From Phycisphaerae bacterium (lineage in GTDB: Bacteria > Planctomycetota > Phycisphaerae > UBA1845), in contig JAJDDQ010000031.1 of NCBI GenBank assembly GCA_029260215.1, positions 1 to 64,000 on the forward strand: a stretch of DNA of 64,000 bases, in the 5' to 3' direction. A program made the translations under genes and the position numbers. The number at the start of each line of letters is the position of its first letter. The first letter of the stretch is position 1. Below the pieces are notes generated by a model. That model did not search any database. It was given only the letters and a program-made list of their open reading frames with translations, and was not told the origin of the DNA. Of the stretch, positions 18,600 through 25,265 are shown one piece after another.

Positions 18600-18678
18600 C
18601 AGAGCATCGTATCGCAGCCAAAGGATCAAAAGCAATCGGTGTTGGTCGGGCAGGCGCTTCGCGGTGCGCGCAAAAAAT

Positions 18679-18929
18679 ACCAGGCGAGGGTTGCTCTACG
18701 AACAACCCAAGCCTGGGAGGGAGAGAGAGAGCTTGTGGACGCCCGACGGCCCTCAATTTCGCCGGTGCGCTTCTCCTTGCCAGGCGAGGGCTGCTCTGCG
18801 AGCAACCCAAGCCTGGGAGGGAGAGAGAGAACTATGATCACCCGCCCGCTTTCGCCGTGCGGGGTTGATCGCAATACCAGGCGAGGGTTGCTCTACGAAC
18901 AACCCAAGCCTGGGAGGGAGAGAGAGAGA
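18679..18929. repeat. Three-copy array of a ~53-base nested-hairpin repeat
   Basis: Copies at 18679-18731, 18780-18831 and 18877-18929, spaced 101 and 97 bases apart. Each has an outer stem CCAGGC/GCCTGG, an inner stem GGGTTGCTC/GAACAACCC around a TAC loop, and a purine tail GGAGGGAGAGAGAGA. Copy 2 differs at several inner-stem positions (GGGCTGCTC-TGC-GAGCAACCC). The spacers are not alike. Apart from this array I see no gene in 18600-19035. Confidence 0.75.
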
Positions 18930-20020: not shown

Positions 20021-21544
20021 CTACAAGCGGTACTTGCGACGCTTGTTGTAAAGCGTGCGTGTGGACAGCCCCAGCATCCGCGAAAGGTCCGCCTGGTTCT
20101 CGCCGCCATTCTCGATGGACTGTTCGAGCACGACGCGTTCGCAGCGATCAACGAATTCCGGCAGGGTCATGCGCCCAGCCGCGATCATGTTGCAGGCGTT
20201 TTCGAGGGTTTCCCTGGTCAGGACTTCGTTCGTGGACTTGAGCGACTGCACATGACGTTCGAGGAACGCGCTCGGCAGATCGCGCAGCGTCAGCTCATCC
20301 CCCTCGGTCTTGAAAGCCATCGCCCGGCGGATCAGATTCTCCAATTCCCGGACGTTCCCCTCGAGCGCACAACCCGACAGCAATTGATGCACACGATGCC
20401 CCACACGCGCGACGGGCTTGTCGTAGTGCATGGCGTACTTCTTGATGAAGAAATCAACCAGCAGCGGAATATCCTCGCGCCGCTCGCGCAAAGGCGGAAT
20501 TTCGAGTGCAATAACGTTCAGGCGTTGATAAAGATCAAGCCGAAAACGCTCTTCCTCGACCAGCGCCGGAATGCGCCGGTTGGAGGCTGCGATCACGCGA
20601 ACATCGACCGCGTATTCGCGATCACTGCCGACCGGCATGACCACGCCCTCTTGCAGAAAGCGCAGCAGTTTCGGCTGCAATTCCAGCGACATTTCACCGA
20701 TTTCATCGAGGAAAACCGTCCCACCGTCAGCCGCCCGGAAATACCCGTCACGCGGCTCGGTTGCCCCGGTAAACGCACCTTTGACGTGTCCGAACAGGGC
20801 GCTCTCAGCCAATGTCCCCGTGATGGCGGCGCAGTTGACCGCGAGAAACGCTCGGCTGGACCGCTTGGGATCAAGGCGGTGGATCATCTCCGCGAGCAGT
20901 TGCTTACCCGTTCCCGATTCCCCGTAGGTCAGCACCGGGGCGTCTGATATTTCGGCAGCGCGGGAGGCTTGTTGAAGCAGGCTGGCCATCGCCCGACTGC
21001 ATCCGACAATGCCGGTGCTCTCGTAAATCTCCCCGCTGTGCAGTTTCTTGTTGTGTTCAACGGATCGCCGGTGACGCTGGCAAGCGTGGTCGAGTCGTTT
21101 TCGCAGAACGTCGTTGTCGATGCGTCCGCTTTCATCGATCTCGACGAAGCCAGCCAACCCGTTGTTGATGGCTTCGCAACAGACGGAGACATCGACCGAC
21201 GCGTCGATTGTCATCACGACCTGCGTATCGGCGGACACCTGGCGGATGGCACGGATGCCGTCGACCAGTTCGTCGTAGGCGCCTCGCAGGCGAGCACCCT
21301 TCTCCCACGCGACAATCATCGCGACGGAGTACATCGGTTCCGCTGCGAGCTTCGGGAGCGCGTCAGCCAACGAGCCGACCGCATGCACGTCATAGCCAAA
21401 TTCGCGCAGACTCGCTGCAATTTCCTCGCGGAAATCGTCCACGATATTGATAAGAAGCAACCTTTCGGCTGCCACTTTAGAAAGGTGCAACCCTTCTCCC
21501 TCCCGCAACTTTCCCTGCCCCACCATCCGTTGATTTGATGGCAC
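20021..21544 (-). CDS. NtrC-type sigma54 activator with degenerate receiver domain
   Basis: A 507-residue enhancer-binding protein. The AAA+ domain has Walker A GESGTGK (208-214), the sigma54-contacting GAFTGA loop (256-261), Walker B TVFLDEIGEM (D280) and a GNVRELEN arginine-finger region. The last ~40 residues are a Fis-type helix-turn-helix (NQADLSRMLGLSTRTLYNKRRKYRL). The N-terminal ~150 residues look like a receiver (RLLLINIVDDFREE...), but the phospho-acceptor Asp strand reads VAMIVAWEKG and the conserved Lys position reads FVEID. Control by phosphorylation is therefore unlikely. Start uncertain: 21526 or a TTG after GGGAGGGAGAAGGG are alternatives. No kinase beside it. Confidence 0.88.
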   Translation of the reverse strand: MPSNQRMVGQGKLREGEGLHLSKVAAERLLLINIVDDFREEIAASLREFGYDVHAVGSLADALPKLAAEPMYSVAMIVAWEKGARLRGAYDELVDGIRAIRQVSADTQVVMTIDASVDVSVCCEAINNGLAGFVEIDESGRIDNDVLRKRLDHACQRHRRSVEHNKKLHSGEIYESTGIVGCSRAMASLLQQASRAAEISDAPVLTYGESGTGKQLLAEMIHRLDPKRSSRAFLAVNCAAITGTLAESALFGHVKGAFTGATEPRDGYFRAADGGTVFLDEIGEMSLELQPKLLRFLQEGVVMPVGSDREYAVDVRVIAASNRRIPALVEEERFRLDLYQRLNVIALEIPPLRERREDIPLLVDFFIKKYAMHYDKPVARVGHRVHQLLSGCALEGNVRELENLIRRAMAFKTEGDELTLRDLPSAFLERHVQSLKSTNEVLTRETLENACNMIAAGRMTLPEFVDRCERVVLEQSIENGGENQADLSRMLGLSTRTLYNKRRKYRL

Positions 21545-22000: not shown

Positions 22001-22381
22001 CTAGCGGTTGCGGGCGAACGTACGCCCCAACTCAACGTCGCCGCATTGGGTAACCACGACGGAGTCGATGCCGCCACGCAGGCTCCAGCGCGATTCGACC
22101 TCCATCCACCTCGGGCGACAGCAGGCAGACAGGTCATCGAGAATGCGGTTGGTGACATCCTCGTAGTAGATGCCCTCGGTCCGATAGGATTGAAGGTAAA
22201 GCTTCAGGCTGCGCAGCTCGACGCACAAATCGGACGCCACGTAGCGGAAAATCAGCTTTCCGAAATCCGGCTGCGACGTGACCGGGCAGACGCTGGTGAA
22301 TTCGTGGGCCGTGTGCGTAATGAGGTAATTCCGCTTGGGATGCGGATTGGCGAAGGATTCAAGCAGTGACGTGTCAGGCAC
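22001..22381 (-). CDS. queF: NADPH-dependent 7-cyano-7-deazaguanine reductase
   Basis: Reduces preQ0 to preQ1 in queuosine biosynthesis, in the cytosol. The 126-residue length and sequence fit the short, single-domain (type I) QueF. The catalytic cysteine and aspartate lie in SVCPVTSQPDFG (~30-41). The family motifs ELRSLKLYLQSYR and VESRWSLRGGI follow. The start is a GTG at 22381 (VPDTSLLESFANPHP). An in-frame stop 18 codons further upstream limits alternatives. No other queuosine gene is adjacent. Transcribed in the same direction as the small gene at 22493-22666, 111 bases upstream. Confidence 0.92.
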   Translation of the reverse strand: MPDTSLLESFANPHPKRNYLITHTAHEFTSVCPVTSQPDFGKLIFRYVASDLCVELRSLKLYLQSYRTEGIYYEDVTNRILDDLSACCRPRWMEVESRWSLRGGIDSVVVTQCGDVELGRTFARNR

Positions 22382-22492: not shown

Positions 22493-22666
22493 TTATTGCG
22501 ACAGACCTGCCGCGATGGCCCAGCCGATCATGGCACCGAACATGGCACCCGTAATCGGCGAGCTGGTGGCTCACGAGCCGCAGTCGCCGGCTTTTCGCTT
22601 GCCCGCCCATCCGAGCAATCCGCCCAGCATTGCGCCCGCAGAGATCGAAAGCGCGTTGATAACCAT
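22493..22666 (-). CDS. Tiny two-helix membrane protein with in-frame TGA (candidate selenoprotein)
   Basis: The frame opens at 22666 with AGGGAG six to seven bases before the ATG. It encodes MVINALSISAGAMLGGLLGW and AGKRKAGDCGS, then TGA as codon 32 (22571-22573). Reading on in the same frame gives ATSSPITGAMFGAMIGWAIAAGLSQ and a TAA. The part after the TGA is a second glycine-zipper helix that mirrors the first (GAMxGxxxGWA), as expected of one intact two-helix protein. Reading TGA as selenocysteine gives Cys-Gly-Ser-Sec, a CxxU redox motif at the helix turn, beside a TSSP segment. Small membrane proteins with Cys...CPxTSxP turns (DUF6132-like) look similar. By eye I find only a weak stem (CCG-AUUA-CGG) where a SECIS should be. 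The alternative is a nonsense mutation in a once Cys- or Ser-containing gene. Confidence 0.45.
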
Positions 22667-22809
22667 ATCAAGCTCCCTGGTGTGTGTGGCGATCGCGTTG
22701 TCTCCGACGCACCCGTCGAATCGTCGCCAATCGTCGTTTTTTGTCGCCGCCAGCCAGCCCAACGGTGACGCCGTCGTCAAACCGATCATTGAACCGAACA
22801 CGCCCGCAT

Positions 22810-22967: not shown

Positions 22968-25265
22968 ATGAAACGAAGCATCTGGGTTTTCCCCGTACTG
23001 TTGGCTGGCGTTGTTTTTTCGTGTGTCGAGCAGGCCCGGGCGCAAAGCCTGGACGAAGAAACACTGGATCGTGTGAAGCTGGCTGCGGTCATGGTACGCA
23101 CGGCTGCGTCGAAGAATCGCGAGGGTGACGACCCGCAAGGCACGGGCAGCGGATTCTTCGTCAATGCGACGGGATTGTGCATCACCAACAACCACGTCGT
23201 GGACCCTGGGCACAAGAAGTCATCACAGGAGAAATTTGACTTGAAGGGGCGACTCAACCGCCTCGTGTGGACGGTGGTTCGCGAAAGCGGAACGGACAAC
23301 GAAGAAGGATACAAAGCCGACGTCCTTTACCAGAACGAACAGGCTGACATCGCTGTTCTTCAGGTTAAGAACGAAGATGGCGAGTTCCTTGATACGCCCG
23401 ACGGGTTTCTGACGTTTCTTCCCACGTCCGATGTAAGCCCCGGATTGAAGGCGTTCTGCTTCGGATTTCCGGGCGGCGATCGGTTGAAAACCACCAAGGA
23501 GTTTCCACCGGTTCGCTTGTCATCCGGAAATATTGTAAATATTCCGCGCACCACTTCGGGCCGAATCAGAATGATCGAGACCGATGTGTTGGCCAACCCC
23601 GGCAACAGCGGTGGCCCCTTTGTGAACGAAACCGGCCAGCTGATCGGTGTCCTGACGCTTGGTTCTCAAACCGAGAGTCGCACGAACACGACGATGCTTG
23701 TTCCCGGTGATCTTGTTCAGGAGATGATTGCCACAGCTTTCAATCGCGGCAAGGTTCCCGCCGGTGTGGATATTGACCCTTTTTACGACCTGTTCGTCGA
23801 CGGCAGCCGTGTGTGGAAACTCCCGCTGCTCGAGCGCAAAGCCAATCTGGACTGTCTGACCGTGGACTCCGACACGCGGGTTTGCGGCAAAGTTGCACAA
23901 AAGACCATCAAGTGGCCTTCACCTTTGGGCGACATCGAAGTGCCGATTTCAGCTATGGCGTACATGCGCAAGGACGATCGTCACGCGATGGCGTTTATCG
24001 ACGGCGGCGATCGATTCCCGTTCGACCCGTCTGAAGTCACCATCAAGTTCGCGCCCGAGGGCGGGCAACCGATCGACATAGACCTCGACGACGTGGATGC
24101 GATTTCGTTTCGCCGGCCAACAGCCCCACCCAAACTCCCGACAGGCACTGCCCTGGTTCTCAAAGGGCGCGATTACAATGTCTCGCTACAGGAAATCACC
24201 GGCGAGTTGAAGATCGACTCCGGCTCGATCCTGGGTGAACTCAAAGTACAAGCCGCCGACGTGAAACGCATCGTGGAAGAAGATCTCGATCGCGTGTTCT
24301 ACACCAAGAGCGGCTCCCGGCTGGCCGGTGAGGTTGCACCGCACAAGTTGAGGGGGATTTTGGCGTGGAGCGGGTCGCCGATCACGTTTACGTACGAGGA
24401 TGAGGAGGTCAACAACATTGAGATCAGGCCCATCAACTATCGCGAGGAAGTACTGGACAGCGAGTTGAGCCTCGTGGCCTCGTTAGAGACCTCTGATCCG
24501 CGACTGGTCAACATCGCCGAATTACTCGACCACAACCTGTTCGTTGAAGCGAAACCGTTTATCGATGAACTAATCGAAGGACGCGCTTTTCGTGACCTGT
24601 CATCGGAAAAGAAGAACCAGCTACGCTTTCTGAACGGTGAATACCTGATTCGCAGCGGGCAATTCGCCGCCGCCGCCGATGCGTTCAAGAAGGTGCGCAG
24701 CGCAAAAGTTGAAAGCATAGCCTGGAACGCGCGTGCCCGACTCGCCATTCTTAATCGTTACGAGAACGGCCAATACAACGGTGAACCTGTTTCCGAACCG
24801 CGCGTGTTCAAGCTGGCAGCCCGGGCGCTGGCTGAGGAGCTGGCGGACAAGGGTGCCATTGGTGTCGAGAGTGTTGAGGACAGCAAACCGGACTCTCGCG
24901 GCGACTACCTCAAGATTCTCAAACGCAGCAAGTCCACCGAGGAAATCCTGCAAATCGCTAACAGCCTGACCACGGGGTCGTCGGAGGAGTACATCGTCTA
25001 CCTGTGGCGCATCACCGCCCAGGCCCACGCCAACGAGATTCAGCGATTGGCCCGGCAACAGCGGGATTTCCAGGAACAGTTGACCCGCCCCGGCCCCGGC
25101 GGGCGACCGCTTGTAGCCGCCCAACGCCGGCAACTGGATCGAAAAATCACGCAACTGACTCGGGATATTGGGACGGCCCAGGAAGCGGAAGCGATCCTTC
25201 GCGGTAAAATCGAAGAAGCTGGTTTCATCATCGATGACCCCGACAATCTCGCCCGCCGCGATTGA
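22968..25265 (+). CDS. Secreted trypsin-like serine protease with C-terminal repeat region
   Basis: A 765-residue exported protein (signal ~1-25, ending QARA). The chymotrypsin-fold triad is visible: H76 (NNHVV), D127 (ADIAVLQV) and S214 (PGNSGGP), as in HtrA/S1C proteases. No PDZ domain is evident. Instead a beta-rich region follows (~290-500), with two related repeats about DCLTVDSDTRVCGKVAQKTIKWPSPLGDIEVPI and IKFAPEGGQ/LVLKGRDYNVSLQEITGELKI. Then come TPR-like helices (~530-640) and a C-terminal coiled coil (EIQRLARQQRDFQEQL ... RQLDRKITQLTRDIGTAQEAEAILRGK). GAGG precedes the start by ~9 bases. Probably periplasmic quality control or cleavage of an envelope substrate. Confidence 0.85.
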   Translation: MKRSIWVFPVLLAGVVFSCVEQARAQSLDEETLDRVKLAAVMVRTAASKNREGDDPQGTGSGFFVNATGLCITNNHVVDPGHKKSSQEKFDLKGRLNRLVWTVVRESGTDNEEGYKADVLYQNEQADIAVLQVKNEDGEFLDTPDGFLTFLPTSDVSPGLKAFCFGFPGGDRLKTTKEFPPVRLSSGNIVNIPRTTSGRIRMIETDVLANPGNSGGPFVNETGQLIGVLTLGSQTESRTNTTMLVPGDLVQEMIATAFNRGKVPAGVDIDPFYDLFVDGSRVWKLPLLERKANLDCLTVDSDTRVCGKVAQKTIKWPSPLGDIEVPISAMAYMRKDDRHAMAFIDGGDRFPFDPSEVTIKFAPEGGQPIDIDLDDVDAISFRRPTAPPKLPTGTALVLKGRDYNVSLQEITGELKIDSGSILGELKVQAADVKRIVEEDLDRVFYTKSGSRLAGEVAPHKLRGILAWSGSPITFTYEDEEVNNIEIRPINYREEVLDSELSLVASLETSDPRLVNIAELLDHNLFVEAKPFIDELIEGRAFRDLSSEKKNQLRFLNGEYLIRSGQFAAAADAFKKVRSAKVESIAWNARARLAILNRYENGQYNGEPVSEPRVFKLAARALAEELADKGAIGVESVEDSKPDSRGDYLKILKRSKSTEEILQIANSLTTGSSEEYIVYLWRITAQAHANEIQRLARQQRDFQEQLTRPGPGGRPLVAAQRRQLDRKITQLTRDIGTAQEAEAILRGKIEEAGFIIDDPDNLARRD

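Follow-up and report, generated by a model that had tools for sequence, protein, structure and literature searches.

The window analysed here, a stretch of 64,000 nucleotides from a Phycisphaerae-type bacterium, carries on its minus strand a short reading frame with a TGA in its middle. This raises the question of whether the codon terminates a gene or is read as selenocysteine (Sec), and, if the latter, by what signal it is decoded and what the protein may do. The gene occupies positions 22493..22666 (-) and comprises 57 codons, including the UGA, from ATG to TAA; it is supported by its translation, by eight homologues and by a match to the DUF6132 family. The translation reads MVINALSISAGAMLGGLLGWAGKRKAGDCGS, followed by TGA at codon 32 (22571..22573, -), the proposed Sec codon, and then by ATSSPITGAMFGAMIGWAIAAGLSQ and the terminal TAA. 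It bears out the preliminary description, according to which the frame is interrupted by this TGA alone and a second helix mirrors the first (GAMxGxxxGWA twice), since the motif GAM-x-G-x3-GWA is present in each of the two helices. Cys29 (22580..22582, -), the proposed redox partner of Sec32, is located three residues ahead of the TGA. A single-sequence AlphaFold prediction places helices at residues 5-24 and 35-55, with a mean pLDDT of 65 that is too weak for any further reading. The good ribosome-binding site claimed earlier can be read as AGGGAG (22673..22678, -), 6 nt before the ATG. In the list of open reading frames of the window an ordinary 98-codon frame terminates at the UGA, but its upstream extension is not conserved among homologues, which supports the start at 22666.

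To which extent the arrangement is conserved was assessed by a translated search of 60 relatives (including the own genome), which returned homologues in seven other genomes, and by a profile search of the order (114 genomes), which added an eighth. All eight other carriers belong to the same family as the window genome, and their homologues are 44-58% identical at the protein level. Each of the nine genes has one internal stop only, a TGA, and in the codon alignment these TGAs share a column; 25-27 conserved codons lie between it and the final stop. A single in-frame TGA conserved at the same column in eight other genomes puts the observation well beyond chance. The pN/pS ratio of the nine genes was 0.65 before the UGA and 0.63 after it, so that the downstream frame is under a protein-level constraint equal to that of the upstream part. 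The genes of carriers G020 and G099 end with a true TGA stop, which argues that UGA has not simply been reassigned. The pattern that would have spoken against the selenoprotein, relatives terminating at the UGA or carrying a sense codon other than Cys there, was absent among the relatives found. A Cys precedes the UGA by three to six residues in 9/9 genes: four members have a spacing of x2, one of x4 and the remaining four of x5. The CxxU motif noticed at the outset thus holds for the window protein, but is ruled out as a constant of the family. Weak matches in three further genomes (G022, G066, G085) proved unrelated when read. A strict pattern scan of named genomes, requiring the UGA and a distal hairpin, gave one true member, in the Phycisphaerae MAG JAFGJQ010000300.1 (the same gene as in carrier G035), and eight other matches judged by reading to be due to chance; because the pattern was strict, the scan sets no bound on the distribution of the family.

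The gene lies just upstream of queF (22001..22381, -; identified by a TIGR03139 match and synteny) in eight of the nine carriers, G035 being the exception. Further downstream follows a gene for a sigma-54-type response regulator (20021..21544, -), and on the other side there is a divergent gene for a trypsin-like protease (22968..25265, +), both being open reading frames named by reading their sequences. The regulator follows wherever the fetched stretch is long enough, and homologues of the protease gene are found beside carriers on the opposite side. Among the queF loci fetched, protease and regulator flank queF only in those of the carriers, and the non-carrier loci show no trace of the gene, neither as Cys nor as truncated copies. 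No thioredoxin gene adjoins the carriers. There is no clear functional link to the neighbors, and the shared ancestry of the carriers may explain the synteny. Elsewhere in the window, a 56-nt repeat occurs three times at positions 18676-18928, in copies that are 88-100% identical and at a spacing of 97-100 bases; the repeat ends are partly self-complementary (CCAGGCGAGGGTTG...CAACCCAAGCCTGG), and the stretch has no clear gene.

The preliminary description left the protein without a name, but judging by its sequence it is a divergent DUF6132 (PF19628). The hmmscan score of the window protein against this Pfam model was 21.3 bits (E 2e-4), just under the gathering cut-off of 23.2 bits, while a genome search for DUF6132 gave 23.2 bits for the window gene and 24.7 bits for that of G099; some other members of the nine had no Pfam match with hmmscan. 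Profile-profile alignment (hhalign) against the Cys forms of the family gave a probability of 98.3% and an E value of 1.2e-14 over 55 columns and aligned the UGA column with the second Cys. In MAFFT alignments a one-residue gap shifts the UGA one column off this Cys in most rows. A profile search found these Cys forms in other families of the class, with the consensus G-x3-G-x2-LGY-x-GKC-x-SG-x-CPLT-x-NP and the motif C-x4-C-P-[LIF]-T. More distant relatives thus carry Cys at the UGA position, the place at which the preliminary description had proposed to look for it. Carrier G035 also possesses a standard Cys paralogue of DUF6132 (L040, G035:C28:100-237; GCSSGACPITSNP), the Sec and Cys forms here occurring in one genome.

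A clue to function comes from the Cys homologues: among those read, nine continue as a thioredoxin and one as a redoxin (peroxiredoxin) domain; two of these fusions, one of each kind, were confirmed with Pfam. The fusion loci, each in one frame, are L042, L043, L048, L052-L054, L056, L057, L059 and L047, the last of which holds the thiol-peroxidase-like redoxin. From the fusions we therefore infer that DUF6132 may be a dithiol partner in the membrane for thioredoxin-type proteins, with the present protein as its selenol-thiol form. This thioredoxin-linked redox role rests on homologues only, and we give it an even chance. Lys and Arg residues are concentrated in the loop in 9/9 proteins (two to five, with at most one at each terminus), which by the positive-inside rule would put the loop on the cytoplasmic side. 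Alternatively, the Cys-Sec pair could serve in binding or moving a metal, as in the handling of mercury or copper, without any electron transfer. Vicinal thiol and selenol groups do bind soft metals, and Sec-containing metal-transport membrane proteins are included in the catalogue of prokaryotic selenoproteins. We nevertheless consider such a role unlikely, as the fusion partners of the Cys homologues are thioredoxin and, in one case, a peroxiredoxin, and no metal gene was seen adjoining the carriers.

If the UGA is read as Sec, a SECIS element is expected. The bacterial model is a hairpin whose first two loop positions include a G and which lies 16-37 nt from the UGA; a subset of genes departs from it (2026 review, PMC13188914). 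The stem suggested in the preliminary description, CCG-AUUA-CGG at 13-22 bases after the TGA, is not conserved among the genes and was rejected. When the 100 nt after each UGA were scanned, the sole G-loop hairpin common to all nine genes was GYGRCA-GGUN-UGYCRC, of 6-7 bp, which in the window is GCGGCA-GGUC-UGUCGC (22498..22513, -). The search for a SECIS after the UGA did therefore yield a conserved candidate, but it lies 63 nt away and ends at the stop codon of the gene. The distance from UGA to loop is 63 nt in eight genes and 66 in G035, which has one extra codon, and is outside the published range. Pairing is complete in 9/9 genes; one pair alternates between U-A and C-G and another between G-U, A-U and G-C. 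Under random synonymous codons the observed pairing has a probability of 0.006-0.09 per gene; the test is conservative since the codon weights were taken from the nine genes themselves, and the per-gene values are not independent, the genes being related. The isolated hairpin has a predicted energy of -5.3 to -10.2 kcal/mol, and 5/9 reach the SECIS criterion of -7.5 kcal/mol or lower. Its GGUN loop resembles that of the SelD element of the own genome and the loop of E. coli fdhF. We conclude that the terminal hairpin is very probably the SECIS.

It is also conceivable that the protein is a genuine selenoprotein with a working SECIS proximal to the UGA, 16-37 nt away, and that the terminal hairpin is otherwise used, for instance in stabilizing the mRNA or in coupling to queF. 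The published distance range, the folding of the helix-2 codons near the UGA and a G-loop hairpin at 32-37 nt in two genes are in line with this possibility. However, no G-loop hairpin at 16-37 nt is common to the members, in contrast to the GGUN hairpin that is fixed in 9/9 and has a loop like that of the genome's own SelD element, and G035 keeps the hairpin even though queF is not adjacent. A proximal SECIS therefore appears improbable.

How a terminal SECIS could act from such a distance is less certain. Individual folds of the nine genes contain a stem-loop domain between the UGA and the terminal hairpin, within the helix-2 codons (22518..22563, -, in the window), and this region is more stable than synonymous versions of it in 8/9 genes (z -1.0 to -4.3; +0.1 in G015). 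With the approximately 39 nt of this spacer omitted, the loop of the hairpin would be about 24 nt from the UGA and within the published range, and the SelD element is predicted with the same order of UGA, small hairpin and SelB-type hairpin. On the other hand, the spacer stem is not in the same register in all members, and its inner GGNGCC hairpin, tried as a covarying helix, was rejected because its covariation did not exceed that of shuffles. The Gly-Ala codons of a glycine zipper are self-complementary regardless, and in whole-region folds of the G020, G035 and G003 genes longer pairings replace the terminal hairpin. Given the variable register, the lack of covariation and the three folds losing the hairpin, the spacer is a proposal and not an established fact. 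We lean slightly towards the model in which the SECIS acts from more than 60 nt, an intervening stem-loop returning the SelB-binding hairpin to the vicinity of the UGA.

Of the selenium genes that the preliminary description proposed to look for, selA, selB and selD are present in the own genome, all above curated cut-offs and with selB adjacent to selA, but neither the Rfam model nor a relative's gene used as query detected tRNA-Sec (selC) in this 88-contig MAG. High-scoring tRNA-Sec genes were found in 29/39 relatives, including the carriers G003, G015 and G020, and the anticodon was TCA in all five genes checked. The likeliest reason for the missing selC is an assembly gap, although this has not been shown. 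All eight carriers tested have selA, which is weak evidence because most relatives (51/60) have it as well. By sequence reading, the own selD has itself an in-frame TGA in the context CAG-U-AGK, a Sec-SelD site (L010 at about 1500-1600, G000:C34). The SECIS region of this selD is predicted as two successive hairpins, the second with a GGU-type loop about 32 nt after the UGA.

That the UGA is instead read without selenium, by a near-cognate tRNA such as that for Trp or as a leaky stop giving two products, would be compatible with a frame conserved on either side of the codon and with the absence of selC from the own assembly. We regard this as very improbable, since distant homologues have Cys at the position, these genes otherwise use TGG for Trp, two members terminate at a true UGA stop, and the conserved GGUN hairpin accompanies selA, selB and selD. 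Still less tenable is a genuine stop at residue 31 followed by a chance frame or a separate gene, for although the 98-codon frame does end at the UGA, its upstream extension is unconserved, while nine genes preserve the downstream frame, which has a pN/pS of 0.63 and belongs to the same domain family. The 57-residue membrane selenoprotein originally envisaged is thus supported by the sel genes, by the conserved SECIS-like hairpin and by the UGA/Cys pattern of its relatives. We are left with little doubt that the protein contains Sec at the in-frame UGA, selenium incorporation itself being inferred.

The explanation that we favor, and hold to be likely at its core, is a Sec form of DUF6132 with readthrough by means of the terminal hairpin. 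The gene product would be a small two-helix membrane selenoprotein in which codon 32 is decoded as Sec by SelB and Sec-tRNA. SelB would be recruited by the terminal GGUN-loop hairpin, at the 3' end of the coding region, and the stem-loop in the helix-2 codons, if it forms, would fold away the intervening RNA and leave an effective distance of about 24 nt from UGA to loop. In the protein, Cys and Sec at the turn between the helices may form a reversible selenenyl-sulfide pair, probably on the cytoplasmic side if the inferred topology is correct, and this pair might exchange electrons with a thioredoxin- or peroxiredoxin-type partner.

A 2026 catalogue lists 119 prokaryotic selenoprotein families, and neither DUF6132 nor a comparable protein is among them. 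A literature search returned no description of DUF6132 and nothing relevant on selenoproteins of Phycisphaerae; most subscription journals were outside its coverage, so that an earlier notice cannot be excluded. As far as tested, the present protein adds a family to the prokaryotic selenoproteome beyond those 119. For the uncharacterized membrane family DUF6132, in turn, a redox role is made likely by the Sec/Cys exchange and by the fusions to thioredoxin and peroxiredoxin. A SECIS at 63 nt would break the distance rule used for finding bacterial selenoproteins, and if spacer-type elements are real and missed by predictors confined to 16-37 nt, further selenoproteins of bacteria may so far have gone unnoticed.

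Bacterial selenoproteins that have Cys counterparts are known as a kind; it is the family that is new, to the extent tested, and the position of its SECIS that is unusual. Like the canonical bacterial SECIS of the fdhF type (PMC13188914), the candidate is a small hairpin with a loop-initial G, downstream of the UGA within the coding region, but its loop is at 63-66 nt rather than 16-37, it touches the end of the gene, and no bulged U is seen in the stem. With the Cys form of DUF6132 the protein shares a pair of glycine-zipper helices and, between them, a loop containing Cys, T and P, and it differs in that Sec replaces the second Cys, the spacing is x2 to x5 instead of x4, and the Pro after the second Cys is absent. 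The DUF6132-thioredoxin fusions of the class have the same N-terminal membrane domain, whereas the Sec form stands alone, unfused. Finally, the catalogued CxxU selenoproteins (SELENOW-like, AhpD-like and GrdA) likewise have a Cys ahead of Sec, the two probably forming a redox pair, but they belong to other domain families, whereas the window protein is a membrane hairpin with variable spacing.
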